From the IMG/VR virus record IMGVR_UViG_3300024346_000532, positions 1 through 23,269 of that record: DNA of 23,269 nt, one strand, 5' to 3'. The notes beneath the pieces were generated by a model that was not told the origin of the DNA, ran no database searches, and saw only the letters and a list, made by a program, of their open reading frames with translations. The DNA comes from a virus. The translations under genes and the position numbers were made by a program. Below, in pieces: positions 7,457 to 22,993 of this stretch (positions within the stretch are counted from its first letter, which is position 1; every line of letters begins with the position of its first letter).

Positions 7457-7485
7457 TTGACACCCTAAACGCCTTACTGTATAAC
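7457..7485 (+). promoter_or_regulatory. Early sigma70-type promoter (copy 1)
   Basis: It has TTGACA at 7457-7462, a 17-base spacer, and TATAAC at 7480-7485. The spacer CCCTAAACGCCTTACTG resembles those of the promoters at 13280 and 13806. The downstream leader AGTAAGTAAAGGAGA (7491-7505) is also shared with them. It drives the four plus-strand small genes. Confidence 0.82.
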
Positions 7486-7509
7486 ATAGGAGTAAGTAAA
7501 GGAGACACT

Positions 7510-7668
7510 ATGATGGACATGGATGAAATTCTTACCCGATTTAATGAATATTGGGGCATGATGCCGCGACCTATGACTGCTATTGAAGTTGCGTATATGT
7601 TTGTTGATGATTACCCTGATGTGGGTTATGACGCAGATGAAATTGCAACTGCATGGCACGATGCATAA
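7510..7668 (+). CDS. 52-residue acidic early protein of unknown function
   Basis: This is the first gene of the plus-strand cassette. The start ATG is chosen because of the AAAGGAGA site 5 bases before it and the sigma70 promoter just upstream. Longer in-frame starts would lie upstream of the promoter. The product begins MMDMDEILTRFNEYWG and is acidic, with a helical N-terminus and a FVDDYPDVGYDADEI segment. I do not recognise it. The size, acidity and promoter type suggest a host-takeover or regulatory peptide, which is inference. Confidence 0.72.
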   Translation: MMDMDEILTRFNEYWGMMPRPMTAIEVAYMFVDDYPDVGYDADEIATAWHDA

Positions 7669-7678
7669 GGAGTTGAAA

Positions 7679-7924
7679 ATGACACGAACTGTAACTGATG
7701 AAGATATCCTGTCAGACCTCGAGTATCGCGGCATTGACGCATTTTTAGGTGAGATGGCTACTGGCCTGAATGTGCCTGAATGCTTTGCTGTCCGTGTGTT
7801 TGACATTATTCGTACTGCATATGACACAGAATTGCAGTGTGTGGCAAAAACCACAACCAAGCGTAGTGGCTCATTTTGTTTGATGCCTTACACTGACCAA
7901 TACATTGTAACACTTGTTTCTTAA
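7679..7924 (+). CDS. 81-residue early protein of unknown function
   Basis: The ATG at 7679 has an AAGGAG site 6-7 bases before it and lies 10 bases after the previous stop. A longer frame from 7583 would overlap the previous gene and is not likely. The product begins MTRTVTDEDILSDLEYRG, has an amphipathic helical N-terminal half and three cysteines (VPECFAV, LQCVAK and SFCLMP), and ends in a beta-like segment (QYIVTLVS). There is no signal or membrane segment. Family unknown. It is cotranscribed with its neighbours from the promoter at 7457. Confidence 0.75.
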   Translation: MTRTVTDEDILSDLEYRGIDAFLGEMATGLNVPECFAVRVFDIIRTAYDTELQCVAKTTTKRSGSFCLMPYTDQYIVTLVS

Positions 7925-7935
7925 GGAGACACACT

Positions 7936-8304
7936 ATGAAATCAATTGACTATTACAACGGCGTTGATCTTGAATTTCCGATCCGTCCATCAAAGCCAGG
8001 GTCGTTTGACCGCAATGATCCACAGAATATGCGTGATTTTGCTGACCGTATGGAAGCATATCAAGAACGTGATGTTGAATATCGTGCTGATATGGTCGCT
8101 TATCGTGCAGAAGTGCGCGGGCGCAGGGATGACCTTATGGAAGACCTAGGCCGAAATTTTGACTTGACATCAGCCCAAACTCAAGTAGTGTTCACAAAAG
8201 CTTGGGAAGATGGCCACTCAAGTGGCATTACAGAAGTCATCAACCTATTCGGAGATTTTGTTGACCTCATCGAATCATTTAATAACGCTGTAGAAGGAGA
8301 ATAA
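7936..8304 (+). CDS. 122-residue phage protein with AWEDGHSSG motif, function unknown
   Basis: The start has an AAGGAGA site 7 bases upstream. The N-terminus is Pro-rich (LEFPIRPSKPGSFDRNDP). It is followed by a long charged helix, probably a coiled coil (MEAYQERDVEYRADMVAYRAEV), and a C-terminal domain with KAWEDGHSSGITEVINLFGDF. The last motif occurs in small uncharacterised proteins that I recall from many tailed phages, so this is a widespread family with no known role. It is the largest gene of the early plus-strand cassette. Confidence 0.82.
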   Translation: MKSIDYYNGVDLEFPIRPSKPGSFDRNDPQNMRDFADRMEAYQERDVEYRADMVAYRAEVRGRRDDLMEDLGRNFDLTSAQTQVVFTKAWEDGHSSGITEVINLFGDFVDLIESFNNAVEGE

Positions 8305-8305
8305 T

Positions 8306-8392
8306 ATGACTAACTTTGAAAACCTCGTGATCATGGCCACTTTGCAGGTGGTTGATTTCATCAACGTATATGGTGTCGCCTTTTTTGGCTAA
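8306..8392 (+). CDS. 28-residue hydrophobic peptide
   Basis: A short frame begins one base after the preceding stop, with an AGAAGGAGA site 6-7 bases before the ATG. The product, MTNFENLVIMATLQVVDFIN plus VYGVAFFG, is mostly hydrophobic and could be a small membrane peptide, though it contains Asp and Asn. It is the last gene before the terminator. The good ribosome site is the main support. Confidence 0.55.
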   Translation: MTNFENLVIMATLQVVDFINVYGVAFFG

Positions 8393-8563
8393 CCATAATG
8401 ACTAGCAACCCGTGAAACTCTTCAGAGACACTGGGCCCACTAAGAGCATTGAACGGCCTAATAAGAAAGCTGGGTGGGTATTTAGATTGCATTGTAATCA
8501 CCGATTGCATGGATGCATTTTTGAGTCGTAGTAATGCCCGTGGTTAGTGCCAAACACATTCTA
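8393..8563. other. Non-coding stretch before the terminator
   Basis: No frame of note, tRNA or promoter can be seen in these 171 bases. It would be transcribed as the 3' trailer of the plus-strand cassette. It is more GC-rich in places (GGGCCC at about 8434) and may be structured. Confidence 0.5.
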
Positions 8564-8577
8564 CTAGTCATGACTAG
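8564..8577. repeat. Perfect 14-bp palindrome CTAGTCATGACTAG
   Basis: This exact dyad touches the terminator hairpin, sharing its last two bases with it. It may be an operator-like site or an alternative stem that competes with the terminator. No known binding protein can be assigned. Confidence 0.6.
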
Positions 8578-8602
8578 GGCGGGGAATTTCCCCGCCCTTA
8601 TC
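8576..8602. terminator. Strong hairpin between convergent genes, probable terminator
   Basis: AGGGCGGGG and CCCCGCCCT pair in a 9-bp, nearly all-GC stem around a 5-base AATTT loop. It lies between the end of the plus-strand cassette and the end of the sheath gene, so it could stop both. The downstream T tract is weak on each side (TTATCTATT on the plus strand). Confidence 0.75.
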
Positions 8603-8609
8603 TATTAGT

Positions 8610-11081
8610 TTATAGTGCGCCTGTGTTAACAATACGGATCGGAATGTAGATAAATTCTACGCTCTTTGTAGGAGCAATCGCAATGTCAATGTATAGTTCA
8701 TTGCGGTCAATTCTGATTGGCGTATTGTTTGATTCGTCACAAACAACTGCAAAGTCTGTAAGTGCTCGCTTAGTTAGCAAGTCGCTTAGGAAGGCTTCAA
8801 AGATGCGCTGTGCGCGATCACGTGTCAACTTGTCGTTCTGTTCAAACAATAGTGGACGAGCAATCTCATCAAAGCGTTCACGCAAGTAAGCAACTAGGCG
8901 TGCTACGTTTACACGATCCAATGCGCTTGACACTGGGTGCAATGTCTTCTGACCAAACACAACTACACCTTCTAGTGGGAAGTTAGCAATTGGGTTCAGC
9001 TTGTTAACATATGCTGCATCACGCTGGCCTTGGCTTAGTGATACTGCCTTAAACTCGCCTTCGCTAGTAATATAACCAACTGCGCTACCATTTTGGATAA
9101 CACCGCGTGTTAGGCCTGCTGGTGCAAACCATGGGTAGCTGATGTTGTCGTTGTAAGCGTAGGTGTAAAGTACCATGTGACTTGCCGGAACGGTAACAGT
9201 GTTACCTGCAGGTGTTGTTGAACGTCCCGCTGGGTAGTATACTGCTGAGTAAGTGTTCTTTGTAACAAGACCTTCATCACCATTCTCTGTTGCACCAACA
9301 CCAAGAACCCAGCTTGTAGCTTCGGTTGGTGTGAGACGCATTGGAGTATCAATAATGATAAATCCTGTTTCGCCACGGTCTGCATTCAAGTTTACAAGTT
9401 CATCTGTAAGCTCTGGGAAGTTAGGCGCACAAAGTAGCGTAAAGTTACGTGACGGATCACGTAGGTCTTCGTTACCTGATACTGCTGCCTGCATTGCAAC
9501 GCTGATAACTTTGCGCTGTGCTTGGCGTCCAAATAGGCCGCTTCCGTCTGCGCGGTTGCCTGCTGCATTAATCCATGCATCAACTGTTGCTGCACCACTG
9601 TTTACTGGGATGCCAGTTGTATATACACGAACAGTACCTTGGCTTAGAGCCATGTTAACTGCTAGCATATCTGTTGGATATAGTGCTGGATCTGGTGCTG
9701 AGTCAAAGCCTAGGCTGTTTGCATCGTAGCTTGTGCCGCCTGCTGTAACACCAGTGTCTGCTGTCAAATCAGCAAATACTACACCACGTTCAGTGCTTTG
9801 GTCTGTGTTGTCATATAGTGTCCAGGTTGAACCGATATAACGGTAAATCTTTGGATACTCGCCTTCAGTTCCATCAGTCTCTACCCAAATGTCACCTGCT
9901 GTTGGCGTACCAGTTGGTTCAGTTGTTGAGTATGTGATGTCTGCGGCTGCGATTTTTTCCCAATCACCACTTGCGTTAATGTAAAGATCAAGTGCTGAAA
10001 GTGTTGAGTCATACCAAAGTGCGCCTGCTGTTGGCGTACCAACTGGCTCGTCAGTTTGTGCGTATACTTCTGCTGCGATGATTGCAGGTGCGCCGTTAAC
10101 AATTTCTTCAAGTCCAAAACCACTACTTGCTGCCGCTGCGGTAAAGTTAAGTGACAAATTGCCGTCTGTCATTGTTGCTACAATATTGGTTGCACTTGGA
10201 ATATCTTGTGCAATGTAAGTTGTACCACCGTCAAGTGTAACACCTTCAACTTCAACTAGACCAAATACGCCTAGGCTGTTTGATTGATAAACAACAAGGT
10301 TTAGACCGTTGCCTGGCTGAGTAACTTTAACCCAAATATCACCTACTACTGGTGTAGCTGGTGTGCTATAGTGTGCTGCATAAGTTACTGTAGCGGCTGC
10401 ACCTAGGGCAGTAGCTGTTGCCTGTGTCTGGTTAACTGCAAACCATGCAACACCGTCTGAACGGAAATAACCAATTGTAGTTCCAGTTACGCCTGCATCA
10501 TTAAGAACAGCAACTAGATAGTCGCCATCTGCGCCTACTGCGGTAGTTGGTACAAATGTTGATGGGGCAGTGACTTCGCCAATTGCTGCGGCTAAGTCAA
10601 TTTCAACTGATACAGTTTGTAGGACCCATGCTGAACCATTCCAAACGTGAAGTCCAAAAGAGCTAGCATCTGTGTCTATCCAAAACTGGTTACCATTTGC
10701 TGGACCTGTTGGTGCTGTGTCTTGTGCAGTTAGTTCTGCAAGGTCAATGTCAGCGCGGACGATATAAGCTTGTGAGCCTTGTCCTAGGTAGCTATATGCT
10801 GCAAGAAGACCATATTCACTTGTCTCAGCACCTTCAGTGCTTGCAAATGTTGGATCTCCAAAAAATTGTGTTAATTCACGTTGTGATGTTACAGGCACAA
10901 CAAGACCAGCATTTGCTGACTTGGTGTATTTTGCGATGCCATCAGTTTCTGTGCCTGTTGGATCTGTTTTATCTTGTGCTGTAGCAACGACAACGAGAGG
11001 AATTGTGCCCGTTCCTGGGCTTGCGTAAGCGCTTTCGTCTGTTACTGTGACGTCTACGCCTGGTGATACTAGTGTAGCCAT
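8610..11081 (-). CDS. 18: Tail sheath protein gp18 with a long repeated-module insertion
   Basis: gp18 forms the contractile sheath. The N-terminus (MATLVSPGVDVTVTDES, then YLGQGSQAYIVRAD) and the C-terminal domain (SYPWFAPAGLTRG, ALDRVNVARLVAYLRERFDEIARPLLFEQND, and the end IPIRIVNTGAL) are typical sheath. The protein has 823 residues against 659 in T4. The extra length lies mainly in residues 120-430, where at least four copies of a module with a G-x-(I/L/F)-W...L-x-(V/L)-(W/Y)...W pattern occur (about 123-157, 239-278, 344-377 and 387-426). A fifth, weaker copy is at about 183-219. The insertion should face outward. AGGAG lies 7 bases before the ATG, with a late promoter at 11120. Confidence 0.96.
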   Translation of the reverse strand: MATLVSPGVDVTVTDESAYASPGTGTIPLVVVATAQDKTDPTGTETDGIAKYTKSANAGLVVPVTSQRELTQFFGDPTFASTEGAETSEYGLLAAYSYLGQGSQAYIVRADIDLAELTAQDTAPTGPANGNQFWIDTDASSFGLHVWNGSAWVLQTVSVEIDLAAAIGEVTAPSTFVPTTAVGADGDYLVAVLNDAGVTGTTIGYFRSDGVAWFAVNQTQATATALGAAATVTYAAHYSTPATPVVGDIWVKVTQPGNGLNLVVYQSNSLGVFGLVEVEGVTLDGGTTYIAQDIPSATNIVATMTDGNLSLNFTAAAASSGFGLEEIVNGAPAIIAAEVYAQTDEPVGTPTAGALWYDSTLSALDLYINASGDWEKIAAADITYSTTEPTGTPTAGDIWVETDGTEGEYPKIYRYIGSTWTLYDNTDQSTERGVVFADLTADTGVTAGGTSYDANSLGFDSAPDPALYPTDMLAVNMALSQGTVRVYTTGIPVNSGAATVDAWINAAGNRADGSGLFGRQAQRKVISVAMQAAVSGNEDLRDPSRNFTLLCAPNFPELTDELVNLNADRGETGFIIIDTPMRLTPTEATSWVLGVGATENGDEGLVTKNTYSAVYYPAGRSTTPAGNTVTVPASHMVLYTYAYNDNISYPWFAPAGLTRGVIQNGSAVGYITSEGEFKAVSLSQGQRDAAYVNKLNPIANFPLEGVVVFGQKTLHPVSSALDRVNVARLVAYLRERFDEIARPLLFEQNDKLTRDRAQRIFEAFLSDLLTKRALTDFAVVCDESNNTPIRIDRNELYIDIAIAPTKSVEFIYIPIRIVNTGAL
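9804..10715 (-). repeat. Diverged coding repeats in the sheath insertion
   Basis: The region encodes sheath residues 123-426. Two copies are closest: DEPVGTPTAGALWYDST (about 344-360) and TEPTGTPTAGDIWVETD (about 387-403), which also match at DNA level around CCTGCTGTTGGCGTACCA. The repeats suggest internal duplication of a surface domain. Confidence 0.7.
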
Positions 11082-11119
11082 GTTTTATCTCCTGTCAAAG
11101 CTTGTATATACTCTGCCAG

Positions 11120-11127
11120 TATTTATT
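11120..11127 (-). promoter_or_regulatory. Late promoter AATAAATA of the sheath gene
   Basis: The minus strand reads AATAAATAC about 39 bases upstream of the sheath ATG. The leader would be about 33 bases and contains the AGGAG site. Confidence 0.65.
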
Positions 11128-11175
11128 TGGTGGCTACTTATCTTGGGTGGTTACGCAGATAACTACGTAGATAAC

Positions 11176-11799
11176 TTATTTAATTGCCTTGTCAACTTCT
11201 GCTTTGAGTTCTGCAATTCCACTATCATTTGGAATAGTGCGGTCAAATTCTGATGCATGATCAAGCCAACGCCATTCACTTTGGTGAATTTCTGGATGGT
11301 CTTCCATCCAAGACGTATCGTAACGATTGTCAGAAATTGCTGATGAAACCCATTCAGGATCATTGCCTTGTTTGACTCTCCAAACCTGGCCGCCCATTTC
11401 ACGCACAAGATCGCGCTCGTTAAAAAAGCGGACGTCGGGTATCACGTAGTTTGTATCAGGGTTTGCTTGTAACGTTTGCTTGACAATAAGAGTCCAGACT
11501 CGATCATCTAATCCTTGGCGCATACAATCAGTTCCGACGCGCTGCATTACTAGCCGCGGCGTTAAATCATATCCAAGTTCGTTTGACCACCATTCATCTG
11601 GTGTGTCTCGCCATTGGCGACCTTCAACAGTGTCGCCTTCAATCAACGCGCGATCCCAACTAAACATTATAGCTGCTACGTCTTTAAGACGATCTGCATA
11701 GCTAAGTTTAGTATAACCATATTCCTCGACGAGGATGTCGCCCACTGTGCCTTTACCACTTCCGATAAAGCCACATATTCCAATTATTTTTCTTGTCAT
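11176..11799 (-). CDS. 1: Deoxynucleoside monophosphate kinase (T4 gp1-like)
   Basis: The enzyme phosphorylates dNMPs to dNDPs with ATP, feeding phage DNA synthesis. The 207-residue protein begins with a P-loop, GFIGSGKGT (residues 10-18), after a hydrophobic strand (KIIGICG). It continues with SYADRLKDVAA, PRLVMQRVGTDCMRQ and a conserved NYVIPDVRFFNE, matching the dNMP kinase family that includes T4 gp1 (241 residues). It is the last gene of the early cassette. It may also have its own promoter at 11820-11848. GGAG lies 7 bases before the ATG. In T4 gene 1 lies near the gene 3-2-64-4 cluster, so its place next to sheath is a rearrangement. Confidence 0.93.
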   Translation of the reverse strand: MTRKIIGICGFIGSGKGTVGDILVEEYGYTKLSYADRLKDVAAIMFSWDRALIEGDTVEGRQWRDTPDEWWSNELGYDLTPRLVMQRVGTDCMRQGLDDRVWTLIVKQTLQANPDTNYVIPDVRFFNERDLVREMGGQVWRVKQGNDPEWVSSAISDNRYDTSWMEDHPEIHQSEWRWLDHASEFDRTIPNDSGIAELKAEVDKAIK

Positions 11800-11819
11800 T
11801 ATTGCTCCATGTGTTTATC

Positions 11820-11848
11820 ACTATAACACATTTTGTCAATAAAATCAA
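11820..11848 (-). promoter_or_regulatory. Possible sigma70 promoter before dNMP kinase
   Basis: On the minus strand TTGATT (11848-11843) is followed by 17 bases and TATAGT (11825-11820). A TGT just before the -10 gives an extended -10 element. It lies in the 45-base gap before the kinase gene. It lacks the conserved spacer of the three main early promoters. Confidence 0.5.
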
Positions 11849-12096
11849 GAACTTAATTTTTTCATCAGTGCTTTTTGATTGCGGTCTTCTAGAGTATCAA
11901 TCAAGTAATCGACATCTTTTTCAGTACCGCGTTCAATGGTACGTAACATACCTAAAGTTAAAACTAGCAACGTAGTTGATTCTGAACCATCAGTTTCTCT
12001 GTGCCATGCCTTCCACTCTTTTAAAAGTCGGGTGGCTGCTGCTCGTTTTTCTGCCATACGCAACAGGTCAATTCGGTTTTGTTTATCTGTTATCAT
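11845..12096 (-). CDS. 83-residue helical early protein ending in the MKKLS motif
   Basis: The protein begins MITDKQNRIDLLRMAEKRAA and looks entirely helical, with basic and acidic patches. It has no signal peptide. Its end, DTLEDRNQKALMKKLSS, matches the ends of the products at 12093 and 12492. The ATG overlaps the preceding stop (ATGA), so translation is coupled. Family unknown. Confidence 0.8.
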   Translation of the reverse strand: MITDKQNRIDLLRMAEKRAAATRLLKEWKAWHRETDGSESTTLLVLTLGMLRTIERGTEKDVDYLIDTLEDRNQKALMKKLSS

Positions 12097-12335
12097 GATT
12101 CTAGCTTCTTCATTACTGCCCGCTGTTTGATGGCATCAAGATCCTCAGCTAGTTTTTCAGGGACATAATTTTTAAGAAAATCATCTTCTGGCAGTGCATC
12201 CCATAAAGATACAAAATATGAATATATCACGCCACGAGCCATGGCGCATTCATATCCATGTATGGCGACAACATCAGCATCTCGCGCTTCTCTGTGTATT
12301 TCTCTCAACAAGTCTCTGAGTTCATCAGCTGTCAT
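12093..12335 (-). CDS. 80-residue helical early protein ending in the MKKLS-like motif
   Basis: The start at 12335 (MTADELRDLLREIHREARD) is chosen over the longer frame because it overlaps the stop of the basic mini-gene by 11 bases, and the longer frame would cover that gene. The product is acidic and helical, with a GYECAMARGVIYSYFVSLW segment, and ends AIKQRAVMKKLES. It shares that end with two neighbours. Family unknown. It is coupled on both sides. Confidence 0.75.
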   Translation of the reverse strand: MTADELRDLLREIHREARDADVVAIHGYECAMARGVIYSYFVSLWDALPEDDFLKNYVPEKLAEDLDAIKQRAVMKKLES

Positions 12336-12489
12336 TGTCACGGCCCTTGTGCTTGCGCTTGCGCGGAATAACAGCGTCACGCTTGTTAGGGATTGTCTTA
12401 GGACGGAATGGGCCGTTAGGATCGCGCACAAGTGCAGCCGCATAATTGCGTTGCTTAGGCATTTGCGGTGTGCGGATCTTCTTAGCCAT
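12325..12489 (-). CDS. 54-residue very basic protein
   Basis: The frame starts at an ATG two bases after the stop of the upstream gene and ends 11 bases inside the next gene. The product begins MAKKIRTPQMPKQRNYAAAL and has a long Lys/Arg-rich C-terminus (VIPRKRKHKGRDNDS). Over a third of its residues are Lys, Arg or His. Codon use looks like that of its neighbours. Such a protein would be expected to bind nucleic acid. Small basic phage proteins with this kind of N-terminus are known but have no assigned function. Confidence 0.75.
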   Translation of the reverse strand: MAKKIRTPQMPKQRNYAAALVRDPNGPFRPKTIPNKRDAVIPRKRKHKGRDNDS

Positions 12490-12491
12490 TG

Positions 12492-12731
12492 TTACAGTCC
12501 TTCAGACAATTTCTTCATCATTGCTTTATCCAATGTATTTTGCAACTTCGTATGAATATAAAGCAATCGTTTTTCATTATACGAATATCTGATCGTCTTG
12601 TCAAGCTTCTTTCGCTCTTTATAGAATGGGCGGATACCCCACGTGTCAAGTTCTTTTACAAGATACAGACATTGATTTCGCAGTTCTTGGGTTGACGGTG
12701 AATCAACCCAAGGATTTATATCACGTGTCAT
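12492..12731 (-). CDS. 79-residue early protein ending in the MKKLS motif
   Basis: The protein begins MTRDINPWVDSPSTQELRN, is basic and mainly helical, and ends LQNTLDKAMMKKLSEGL. The end resembles those of the two other helical proteins of the cassette. The ATG has an AGGAAA site about 7 bases upstream and overlaps the end of the previous gene by 11 bases. The WGIRPFYKERKKLDKTIRYSYNEKR stretch is strongly basic. Family unknown. Confidence 0.78.
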   Translation of the reverse strand: MTRDINPWVDSPSTQELRNQCLYLVKELDTWGIRPFYKERKKLDKTIRYSYNEKRLLYIHTKLQNTLDKAMMKKLSEGL

Positions 12732-12888
12732 TTTGGTTTTCCTTGTTGAGACGTGTCATGTCAAACATGATAGTCTCGCCCATCGTTTTCATTTGGGCTT
12801 TGATATGGGGGTCTTGTTTTTCCCAATCATTCAAAATTTTGAAGAATACGACACGAGCCTCGTCCCAAGTTTCTTGATCAATTTTCAT
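12721..12888 (-). CDS. 55-residue early protein of unknown function
   Basis: The start at 12888 (MKIDQETWDEARVVFFKI) is preferred over a longer frame because AAAGGAAA lies 5 bases before it. The longer frame would also run into the previous gene. The product looks like one or two amphipathic helices and ends MTRLNKENQNDT. Family unknown. It overlaps the next gene by 11 bases. Confidence 0.72.
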   Translation of the reverse strand: MKIDQETWDEARVVFFKILNDWEKQDPHIKAQMKTMGETIMFDMTRLNKENQNDT

Positions 12889-12898
12889 GCCGTTTCCT

Positions 12899-13252
12899 TT
12901 AAAGGTAATGTGGGCCAGTCCAAGCAATGCTGTAACCGCCGTCTAGGACGTTACCACGTGCTTTGTTACGCGCAGGTGCTGCCCAACCAGCAGCTTTAAG
13001 GATGTCGCCTTTGCGGAATTGCTTGTCCTTTTCAGTAGCAACAATAAAGCCCCAAACGCTGCCGTTTTTAACAATTTTGATGTACTTGCTGCCGCGCACT
13101 AGGCTGAAGCTTTCGTTAAACTCTGCAATCATTTTTACGTTTACAGGGCTTGGCTCGGCTTTGCCGTGCAGCGTATAAGTCAAGTAATCTTCTTTGATCG
13201 CTTCAACAAGAAAGTCAACTGCATTATCAAGTGTCATGTCTGTGGTGTTCAT
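12899..13252 (-). CDS. 117-residue early protein of unknown function
   Basis: The start at 13252 (MNTTDMTLDNAVDFLVEAI) is chosen because a sigma70 promoter and an AGAGGA site lie just upstream. The longer frame would begin before the promoter. The N-terminal half is helical. The C-terminal half has beta-strand segments (KYIKIVKNGSVWGFIVA) followed by FRKGDILKAAGWAAPARNK and a final IAWTGPHYL. The C-terminal block looks conserved in character, with many Gly and Trp residues, and I have a sense of having seen it in other phage proteins, but I cannot name a family. First gene behind promoter copy 2. Confidence 0.82.
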   Translation of the reverse strand: MNTTDMTLDNAVDFLVEAIKEDYLTYTLHGKAEPSPVNVKMIAEFNESFSLVRGSKYIKIVKNGSVWGFIVATEKDKQFRKGDILKAAGWAAPARNKARGNVLDGGYSIAWTGPHYL

Positions 13253-13259
13253 TGTGTTA

Positions 13260-13274
13260 TCCTCTTTGCTTACT
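13260..13274 (-). promoter_or_regulatory. Conserved early leader with ribosome site (copy 2)
   Basis: The minus strand reads AGTAAGCAAAGAGGA. Copies 1 (7491-7505) and 3 (13786-13800) differ by only a few bases. It contains the ribosome binding site. Confidence 0.7.
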
Positions 13275-13279
13275 CTTAC

Positions 13280-13308
13280 TTTATACAGTAAAGCGTCTTG
13301 GTTGTCAA
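13280..13308 (-). promoter_or_regulatory. Early sigma70-type promoter (copy 2)
   Basis: On the minus strand TTGACA (13308-13303), a 17-base spacer (ACCAAGACGCTTTACTG) and TATAAA (13285-13280) are present. The spacer matches copy 3 at most positions. It sits in the 79-base gap between the DUF6011-like gene and the 117-residue gene. Confidence 0.85.
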
Positions 13309-13331
13309 CAACTATTTCAACATTTTTAAAT

Positions 13332-13778
13332 TTATTCCATGCGTCCTGCACAAACTGGACCAAGTCCAGTTACAATGCTTTCTGGCACAGTAAGTGTGCG
13401 CCCACAGCATCCGCATTTACCAGCGTGGTAAAACTCAACAGTGTCTGGCAACTTACCAGCAGCCAACTTACCAACAAGCCAGTTAAGTGCAACAAAGCTG
13501 TCAGCATCTGGGTGGCCTTTGGCGCCAGGGATCAACTCGTTGCGGTTTTTCTTGAGAAGGTATCCTAAATAGCTATAGTTGGAAACATTGTCAGGACCGC
13601 TGAGTACATTAACAAACATGATACGCTTGTCTTTATCGCTGCGCGGTGCTTTAACTTTGTAGGTAAAACGATTGCCAGTCACTTTGCTGACAATGGTGAA
13701 CAGTGCGCGACCAGCAAAAACAAATCGCTGTACGTCTTCTGCGTTGAGCATCTGCTCATCAAAAACATCGGTTTTCAT
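13332..13778 (-). CDS. DUF6011-like zinc-finger protein
   Basis: The 148-residue protein has a C-terminal CGCCGRTLTVPESIVTGLGP-VCAG block (Cys122, 124, 125 and 143). This matches the C-x2-CGR-L-T-x-P-E-S...GxGPxC pattern of DUF6011, a small presumed zinc-binding domain common in phages and actinobacteria. The N-terminal part has GRALFTIVSKVTGNRFTYKV and FVNVLSGPDNVSNYSYLGYL, which often precede that domain. The function is unknown, though the zinc finger suggests contact with nucleic acid or protein. It is the first gene behind promoter copy 3. GGAG lies about 8 bases before the ATG. Confidence 0.85.
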   Translation of the reverse strand: MKTDVFDEQMLNAEDVQRFVFAGRALFTIVSKVTGNRFTYKVKAPRSDKDKRIMFVNVLSGPDNVSNYSYLGYLLKKNRNELIPGAKGHPDADSFVALNWLVGKLAAGKLPDTVEFYHAGKCGCCGRTLTVPESIVTGLGPVCAGRME

Positions 13779-13805
13779 ATCAAAATCTCCATTGCTTACT
13801 ACTTG

Positions 13806-13834
13806 ACTATAAAGTAATACGCCTTGGTTGTCAA
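13806..13834 (-). promoter_or_regulatory. Early sigma70-type promoter (copy 3)
   Basis: On the minus strand TTGACA (13834-13829), a 17-base spacer (ACCAAGGCGTATTACTT) and TATAGT (13811-13806) are present, followed by the leader AGTAAGCAATGGAGA (13800-13786). It drives the DUF6011-like gene and probably the cassette beyond. Confidence 0.82.
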
Positions 13835-19642: not shown

Positions 19643-20392
19643 TTATTTCACTAAATCTTTGCCAATAAGTTTAATAACGAGTCCTGAAATGTCAAGTTCC
19701 CACCAGCGATATTGAAAAGACGCCAATCTCGGTTTTGCGTGATGGTTATTGTGCCAATTCTCACCCCAGGCAAGTATAGTCAACCACCAAGTGTTGCGAC
19801 TGTTATCTTTTATAGCAAAATTCTTATAGCCAGTAGTATGAGTAGACCAGCTTATGATTACTGACATTAGCGAAGTTCCTGCTTGCGGAATGAATCCTAG
19901 GAATACCACTGCATGCCAACCACCTAAGAGAAAAAGTACAAGATAGAAAGCTGCAAATACTTTGACTGCGTGCTTGTGCATAAAGTGAAGATATGGGTCC
20001 TTTAGCATACGTTTCACTAAACGATAATTAACATCTTGATCGTAGTTTGGCATAAGGAATGCCTTAACCCCATTCATCGGCGTGTGCGGGTCTTGGTCAG
20101 TATCACTATGTCGGTGGTGCTTGCGATGCACAGCTACCCAAGCAATCGCGCTTCCTGTTCCTCCGAGAGTGCCAAGGAGTATACACAGCTTTTCTAACCA
20201 TTTAAAACGAAATTTGAAACTGTTGTGGGCGAGGTATCGGTGAAATGTAATCGTGACGCCTAGACATGAAAAGGCAAAATATGCGATGCCCGCAGCTATC
20301 CACCATAACGGATCAGCACCGATTACAAGATAATAAATTGCTGACAGTATACCCATTGACATTAGCGCCATGTAGTGTATCGTTTTAAACAT
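19643..20392 (-). CDS. Fatty acid desaturase (acyl-CoA/acyl-lipid type, membrane)
   Basis: The 249-residue protein has the three histidine boxes that hold the di-iron centre: HRYLAH (51-56), HRKHH (89-93) and HNNHH (214-218). The spacing is right for the delta-9 desaturase branch. Hydrophobic segments lie at about 8-24, 29-48, 70-87, 145-168 and 172-183, as expected for an integral membrane enzyme. It inserts a double bond into a fatty acyl chain using O2 and reduced ferredoxin or cytochrome b5. All key residues are intact. It is an auxiliary metabolic gene and sits among tail-fibre genes, downstream of the tail-assembly chaperone. Start supported by a GGAAT site 7 bases upstream. Confidence 0.95.
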   Translation of the reverse strand: MFKTIHYMALMSMGILSAIYYLVIGADPLWWIAAGIAYFAFSCLGVTITFHRYLAHNSFKFRFKWLEKLCILLGTLGGTGSAIAWVAVHRKHHRHSDTDQDPHTPMNGVKAFLMPNYDQDVNYRLVKRMLKDPYLHFMHKHAVKVFAAFYLVLFLLGGWHAVVFLGFIPQAGTSLMSVIISWSTHTTGYKNFAIKDNSRNTWWLTILAWGENWHNNHHAKPRLASFQYRWWELDISGLVIKLIGKDLVK

Positions 20393-22054: not shown

Positions 22055-22993
22055 TTAATCTCCTGAAAATCCTGCCGATTCGGCGCGGGTAACAGTCAAA
22101 TCGCCAAAATCTGTTGCATTGCCTGTTGTTGCTATAGTGACATATTGTATTACGTTCGAGGCTGCACCTCCACTTATAATTCCTCTCGTATCATTTGCAG
22201 CGCCTGACAGTTCTCTTTGTGCAATCAATATATCTCCAAAATCTGTGGCGTTCCCAGTTGTATCTATAGTGACGTAATCTATTGTATTAACATTGTTCTT
22301 GATGTAATCAGTACCACCGCCCGCCCAACAACCGCGAGAGCCATCCGAAAACCCGCCTGTCCAAGCGCGACTTACAGTCAAATCGCCAAAATCTGTTGCA
22401 TTGCCTGTTGTTGCTATAGTGACATATTGTATTACGTTTACGAATCCTGAGTTTGTATCAACTCCTCCACTAAAAAGGGCCCTTGTTTCACTGCTTATGC
22501 CAGTCAGGTTGGCAGTTACAGATACCGTATCTCCGAAATCTGTTGCGTTGCCTGTTGTTGCTATAGTGATATATTGTATCTCATTGCGGTAGGCAGAAGC
22601 ATCGAGACCACCTGCGTATAATCCTCGAACACCGTCAGATGATCCCGCTCCGACCTCGGATGCGGCCAATAGATCGCCAAAATCTGTTGCATTGCCTGTT
22701 GTAGATATAGTAATATAATCTATTACATTTGTTCGAGTAGGGGTATTATTAATGCGTCCGCTAAGCGAAACACCTCGGCCACCTCCAGCTAGACCGGCTG
22801 CCCAAGATCGTCCAATTGTTAGATCACCAAAATCTGTTGAATTGCCAGTTGTTGGTATAGATACATAATCTATAACATCTAAAAATGTCGGGCCATCGGC
22901 TGTCCAACCGCCTGATGTAACACCTCTATCACCTAGAAAGGCGGGCTCGACACCTCCGAAACCTGCCGCTCCGATTATACTTGATCTGAGCAT
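22055..22993 (-). CDS. Six-repeat propeller-like protein of the tail-fibre cluster
   Basis: The 312-residue protein consists of repeats built around TTGN(A/S)TDFGD, found at about residues 48, 98, 146, 195, 246 and 289, a spacing of 43-51 residues. Each repeat also holds (V/I)(I/T)(Q/D)Y(V/I)(T/S)I before it and a later RG...(S/A)GG, as in kelch-type beta-propellers. The chain starts with the second half of a unit (FLGDRGVTSGGW) and ends after the first half (AESAGFSGD), as in propellers closed by a 'velcro' blade. It is probably an adhesin or fibre component. The ATG forms a TAATG junction with the fibre gene stop. Confidence 0.85.
   Translation of the reverse strand: MLRSSIIGAAGFGGVEPAFLGDRGVTSGGWTADGPTFLDVIDYVSIPTTGNSTDFGDLTIGRSWAAGLAGGGRGVSLSGRINNTPTRTNVIDYITISTTGNATDFGDLLAASEVGAGSSDGVRGLYAGGLDASAYRNEIQYITIATTGNATDFGDTVSVTANLTGISSETRALFSGGVDTNSGFVNVIQYVTIATTGNATDFGDLTVSRAWTGGFSDGSRGCWAGGGTDYIKNNVNTIDYVTIDTTGNATDFGDILIAQRELSGAANDTRGIISGGAASNVIQYVTIATTGNATDFGDLTVTRAESAGFSGD
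22092..22156 (-). repeat. Exact 65-bp direct repeat, copy 1
   Basis: This stretch is identical to 22374-22438, 282 bases away. It encodes the core of one repeat of the propeller-like protein. Perfect DNA identity, with neighbouring repeats diverged, points to recent copying. Confidence 0.85.
22374..22438 (-). repeat. Exact 65-bp direct repeat, copy 2
   Basis: This is the second copy of the repeat at 22092-22156, in the fourth unit of the propeller-like protein. Confidence 0.85.

Follow-up and report, generated by a model that had tools for sequence, protein, structure and literature searches.

Three promoter modules in a T4-like virus fragment

The window analysed here, which is the whole 23,269-nucleotide stretch of IMG/VR record IMGVR_UViG_3300024346_000532, represents a 23-kb piece of a T4-like virus genome and carries three near-identical promoter modules, one on the plus strand and two on the minus strand. 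Module 1 (promoter 7457..7485, +) consists of TTGACA (7457-7462), the 17-bp spacer CCCTAAACGCCTTACTG and TATAAC (7480-7485), and its leader AGTAAGTAAAGGAGA (7491..7505) lies at the expected transcript start and ends in a Shine-Dalgarno sequence. Module 2 (13806..13834, -) comprises TTGACA (13834-13829), the spacer ACCAAGGCGTATTACTT and TATAGT (13811-13806), followed by the leader AGTAAGCAATGGAGA, which begins at 13800 (13786..13800). Module 3 (13280..13308, -) comprises TTGACA (13308-13303), the spacer ACCAAGACGCTTTACTG and TATAAA (13285-13280), with the leader AGTAAGCAAAGAGGA beginning at 13274 (13260..13274). In all three modules, 24-28 bases separate the end of the -10 hexamer from an ATG preceded by a Shine-Dalgarno-like sequence, and inspection of the sequence revealed no TGn element. 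The first-pass annotation had reported these sites at 7457+, 13308- and 13834- with spacers and leaders that resemble each other. All three are present exactly as claimed, and 19 of the 32 non-hexamer columns are the same in all of them, compared with a mean of 2.1 and a maximum of 11 when triples were drawn at random from the window 100,000 times.

An independent matrix of 44 columns, trained on 141 modules of other contigs with the window and its near-identical relatives left out, retrieved exactly these three sites from the window, with scores of 48.6, 40.2 and 29.0 bits for modules 3, 2 and 1, respectively (next best site, -11.4 bits; best among 200 shuffles, 2.0 bits). When the hexamers were masked, the three sites still ranked first (33.8, 20.6 and 16.1 bits). 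As the best of 200 shuffles reached 16.0 bits, equal to the masked score of the site at 7457, this site is marginal on spacer and leader alone. A further TTGACA-N17-TATAAT at 12604- was rejected as a fourth member, since it lies inside an ORF and its spacer is unrelated.

Module 1 is directed away from the tail-tube gene and heads a run of three small ORFs of unknown function (7510-7668, 7679-7924 and 7936-8304; 7510..8304, +), a putative early operon whose second ORF shares 53% identity with a protein directly under the module in another lineage. A terminator-like hairpin AGGGCGGGGAATTTCCCCGCCCT with 8 G-C pairs (8576..8598, +), placed by a consensus scan only, lies between this putative operon and the convergent tail sheath gene; the scan gave 13 hairpins in the region versus 10.2 expected. 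Modules 2 and 3 each precede one small minus-strand gene, encoding a 148-aa protein (13332..13778, -; phrog_20259) with a DUF6011 motif at its C-terminus and a 117-aa protein (12899..13252, -; phrog_5014), respectively. More small ORFs 3' of module 3 (12492..12931, -) are probably co-transcribed from it. The 30-residue cysteine motif at the C-terminus of the module 2 product (13332-13430, -) also occurs in the otherwise unlike phage proteins phrog_636, 4046 and 6032, and looks like a portable zinc-binding tail.

Distribution of the module in viruses and bacteria

Patterns of the module, which is about 44 bp long (-35 to about +9), matched 60 and 111 stretches in IMG/VR and more than 150 overall, these being contigs of uncultured marine or estuarine T4-like viruses. 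When 12 contigs, the window among them (about 725 kb in total), were scanned with a matrix, 29 sites scored at least 18 bits, and none did so in the reversed and Markov controls. The first-pass annotation had proposed a position-matrix search of related phages and had held that a lack of further copies in the genome would speak against its idea of an early regulon. Further copies were found in relatives, where most long contigs had 2-18 matches; the window, a 23-kb fragment of its own genome, has the three. No copy of the module was found among 84,980 bacterial genomes, and BLAST of the 44-mer consensus against 50,697 sequenced phages gave nothing above chance. The cultured relatives Paride, Phosso, Vibrio 2.275.O and Atu_ph07 contain no family of such sites, with one stray pattern match in Paride. 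The terminase of the window shares 62-65% identity with several uncultured IMG/VR contigs included in the analysis and 54% with the Pseudomonas jumbo phages Paride and PA5oct, and BLAST of the window against sequenced phages returned no match. As a pointer to the host, a phage S21 protein gave only weak matches, to alphaproteobacteria.

Across the relatives, 177 distinct proteins are encoded under the module and group into 69 clusters. The function of most is unknown; occasionally one is a DNA ligase, an AAA ATPase, an HD phosphohydrolase or a cell-wall hydrolase. Such a spread over 69 gene families fits the regulon that had been proposed, and the timing implied by "early" is suggested by the consensus sigma70 hexamers, the small genes of unknown function and the separate T4-type late promoters. 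Motif matches to the latter (NATAAATAC) are found upstream of structural genes in the window at 7438-, 11127-, 14810-, 14818+, 4361- and 1529-, with 14810- and 14818+ forming a divergent pair. As the late motifs precede structural genes and the modules precede small genes, late and putative early promoters are interleaved in the window.

A dyad within the promoter spacer

In many relatives, the spacer between -35 and -10 is a perfect 16-bp dyad, AGTAAGACGTCTTACT. The dyad has the core AAG-N4-CTT, and its full form is AGTAAGACGTCTTACT or CCAAGACGTTTTGG. Of 220 gene-linked promoters with 17-bp spacing, 38 had the core in the spacer. The corresponding counts were 1 of 91 for such promoters not linked to a gene and 0 of 73 when the sequence was reversed, and none was seen in promoters with 16- or 18-bp spacing. 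Among 58 strong dyads in 1.8 Mb, 46 fall within promoters. Moreover, the dyad pairs -1/+1, -2/+2, -6/+6 and -7/+7 are complementary above column shuffles (p 0.001-0.009, uncorrected for shared ancestry).

Counted from the start of -35, the dyad occupies registers 8, 9, 11 and 14, whereas the distance of the leader to -10 is constant. The register 8 and register 11 patterns matched 19 and 50 IMG/VR stretches, respectively, and a register 11 control pattern with inverted half-sites matched none in IMG/VR. Copies in one contig can differ in register and in the four central bases, and AAG/CTT is kept. Homologous genes also differ in register: homologues (about 50%) of the module 3 gene immediately follow the module in G001, with the dyad in register 9 as in the window, and in G002 and G009, with the dyad in register 8. 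The module, its copies, the dyad and its several positions are seen directly in the sequences.

The conserved leader element TATAAGTTAA/AGTAAGTTAA coincides with the expected transcript start, and its distance from -10 does not change among the relatives; its role is probably in initiation or in the 5' leader. Its AGTAAG was rejected as a third operator half-site, because its distance to -10 is unchanged when the dyad shifts.

The operator core was also observed outside promoters, in a long intergenic palindrome, GGCTCGGTAAGATGTCTTACCGAGCC, which is kept between helicase-like and ATPase genes in four contigs (L069 in G001, about 94861-94886; G004, 37033; G005, 60289; G023, 33023). It may act as a strong operator on its own, or form a hairpin.

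Copying of the promoter cassette

In thirteen pairs of sites, one and the same 44-mer precedes unrelated genes, and the upstream flanks are mostly unlike. In addition, module 2 is repeated in contig L016, where the first 43 bases are identical and a different gene follows. This contig and a near-identical relative of the window (G025) come from one sample. The contig may represent a further part of the same virus, and the window's virus would then have a fourth copy. A stem-loop with a T run was located just upstream of 55 of 181 sites, compared with 2 of 181 after shuffling, and no stem-loop terminator was found at the three modules of the window.

To explain the likeness of the three modules, the first-pass annotation had offered two alternatives, namely a copied promoter cassette or recognition by an additional factor. 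The identical 44-mers before unrelated genes, together with the L016 copy of module 2, support the former, and the latter gains support from the dyad in the relatives' spacers, which is concentrated in promoters and lies at several offsets from the hexamers; the evidence thus speaks for both. The identical 44-mers demonstrate copying, and not the recombination mechanism of gene shuffling.

A putative operator for early-gene repression

Based on these patterns, we propose that the modules are strong host-sigma70 promoters on a copied cassette, with a spacer operator for a putative dimeric protein that is most likely a repressor of early genes, a reading to which we assign a probability of roughly 55%. 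The three sites of the window would belong to a virus-clade-wide family of promoters driving small accessory, probably early, genes, and the promoter would move as a cassette of about 44 bp, copied before many unrelated genes. In the relatives, a dimeric DNA-binding protein would bind the dyad operator in the 17-bp spacer, and a phage-encoded protein occupying the spacer would shut down many early genes at once. What we infer here from sequence comprises promoter activity, early timing, the binding protein and repression. Repression is the least secure step and is preferred because hexamers near consensus with 17-bp spacing make an activator unnecessary; the simplest form of such repression would be an early shut-off.

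Several observations weigh against this proposal. The complementarity statistics ignore shared ancestry, and register 9 is over-represented, as the relatives were mostly found with register 9 patterns. The pattern search of IMG/VR gave 0 and 1 match for registers 10 and 12, respectively. As these registers are essentially absent, the dyad positions are discrete, and a freely floating operator was rejected; discrete registers may reflect geometric limits on the site or the expansion of a few founder cassettes, and if position matters, a pure steric-block argument is weakened. The dyads of the window are imperfect, with ACCAAG...TTACT in modules 2 and 3 and an intact right half-site, CTTACT, beside a degraded left half-site in module 1. 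Owing to these poor dyads, regulation in the window is the least certain part, and may be weaker there or act via one half-site. Six domain models were run on the module-bearing contigs, which are incomplete: HTH_3, MerR_1, TetR_N and MetJ gave nothing above cut-off, and RHH_1 gave one weak sub-threshold match. No convincing regulator candidate was found among the proteins under the module or the conserved small proteins. A conserved AbrB/MazE-like protein of 60-70 aa, below the Pfam cut-off, occurs in some module-bearing lineages only (G006, G010, G015, G017 at 34875-35075, G021 and G024) and is a possible regulator, as a lead only.

A rival to repression is the idea that a phage or host protein in the spacer, MerR-like, turns the promoters on at a set time. 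MerR-type proteins bind between -35 and -10, where the dyad lies, and the occurrence of only some registers would suit such an activator. However, promoters of that type have over-long spacers, unlike the 17-bp spacers and near-consensus hexamers found here; no MerR domain was detected in 12 contigs, and registers 9 and 14 lie on opposite faces of the helix, making activation very improbable. Alternatively, the likeness could stem only from recent recombinational copying of a strong promoter, with a spacer that is itself functionless. In favour of this are the identical 44-mers that precede unrelated genes and have unlike upstream flanks, the enrichment of upstream stem-loop terminators, and the discrete registers with none between them, which resemble founder cassettes. 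Neutral copies should decay evenly, yet the dyad positions co-vary, and copies in one contig retain AAG/CTT with differing central bases and register; moreover, none of the window's three copies has a stem-loop. Copying as the whole explanation is therefore considered unlikely, though the strongest of the competitors. The fixed position of the leader relative to -10 would also fit a promoter optimised for sigma70, in which spacer and leader improve the interaction with host polymerase, as is thought for the additional consensus that T4 early promoters have beyond the hexamers (PMC2988021). A polymerase contact should hold a fixed register, but the dyad occurs at four offsets, its twofold symmetry points to a dimer and the TGn element is missing, so that we regard this option as quite improbable. 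Because symmetry is conserved at shifting offsets, copying alone and polymerase preference alone are insufficient, and a dimer bound to the spacer explains the data best.

A further and more tentative suggestion, for which we see somewhat less than even odds, is that one dimeric repressor and dozens of spacer operators form a single early shut-off regulon in a large uncultured clade of T4-like marine viruses, and that a gene acquiring the cassette would join this regulon at once. If so, the cassette would be a portable, self-regulated socket for early genes in lytic viruses, explaining how newly gained genes could obtain correct timing, and would provide a sequence tag for early genes in marine viruses that are uncultured; the products of most of these genes have unknown functions and likely act on the host. 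A shut-off of early genes through a repressor would then join the repertoire of T4-like viruses; T4 itself still shuts off its early genes without AsiA (PMC2988021).

Comparison with known promoter and operator systems

Repeated early-promoter cassettes in T4-like viruses are already known, as judged from papers citing the original work: promoter-early-stem-loop (PeSL) cassettes of T4-type phages were reportedly described in Arbiol 2010 and Comeau 2014. As in PeSLs, so far as those citing papers describe them, near-identical sigma70-type promoter units are repeated between small variable genes, identical units precede unrelated genes, and many units in the relatives directly follow a stem-loop terminator. 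On sequence, the modules have near-consensus hexamers, 17-bp spacing and an ATG 24-28 bases on, and lie in several near-identical copies beside variable genes, both in the window and in the relatives. In contrast to PeSLs, the coupled stem-loop is lacking at the three sites of the window and the relatives have a dyad operator in the spacer. With imperfect dyads and no stem-loop, the modules of the window are thus not full PeSL cassettes. We know of no spacer dyad operator described for PeSLs, and the dyad across this uncultured clade appears new within a limited literature search, in which PeSLs were compared through citing papers.

Phage repressor operators, among them lambda OL/OR and the stoperators of mycobacteriophage L5, similarly comprise many dyad or repressor sites across a phage genome that overlap promoters. 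Here, a twofold symmetric site overlaps the core promoter across the relatives, imperfectly in the copies of the window. Unlike in those systems, the sites lie inside the spacer, no repressor gene was found, and a temperate cycle is judged here only by the absence of the module from bacterial genomes. The commonest dyad centre contains AGACGTCT, which is the met box of MetJ. In contrast to a MetJ regulon, the centre varies between lineages and the outer AAG/CTT is constant, the dyads are single rather than tandem met boxes, and MetJ was absent from the 12 contigs. T4 early promoters, which unmodified host polymerase uses as soon as infection begins, share with the modules the strong host-polymerase type and an extra consensus beyond the hexamers, and the window likewise derives from a T4-like virus with T4-type late promoters. 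That class is characterized by -35 and -10 elements plus TGn (PMC2988021), whereas all three modules of the window have the hexamers without TGn, and the extra consensus here is a dyad at variable offset rather than a fixed polymerase contact.

Other genes in the window and its relatives

One of the relatives, G012, contains a gene cluster that is host-like in appearance (162868-169538 and 93187-99622), including ribosomal protein S21, ClpS- and ClpP-like proteins, a possible IF3-like protein, adenine phosphoribosyltransferase, ferredoxin and iron-sulfur assembly proteins. The window itself carries a fatty acid desaturase gene (19643-20392, -; PF00487, E 2.1e-19) and, adjoining the tail genes, a gene for a repetitive protein with repeated ATTGNATDFGDL units (22055-22993, -).

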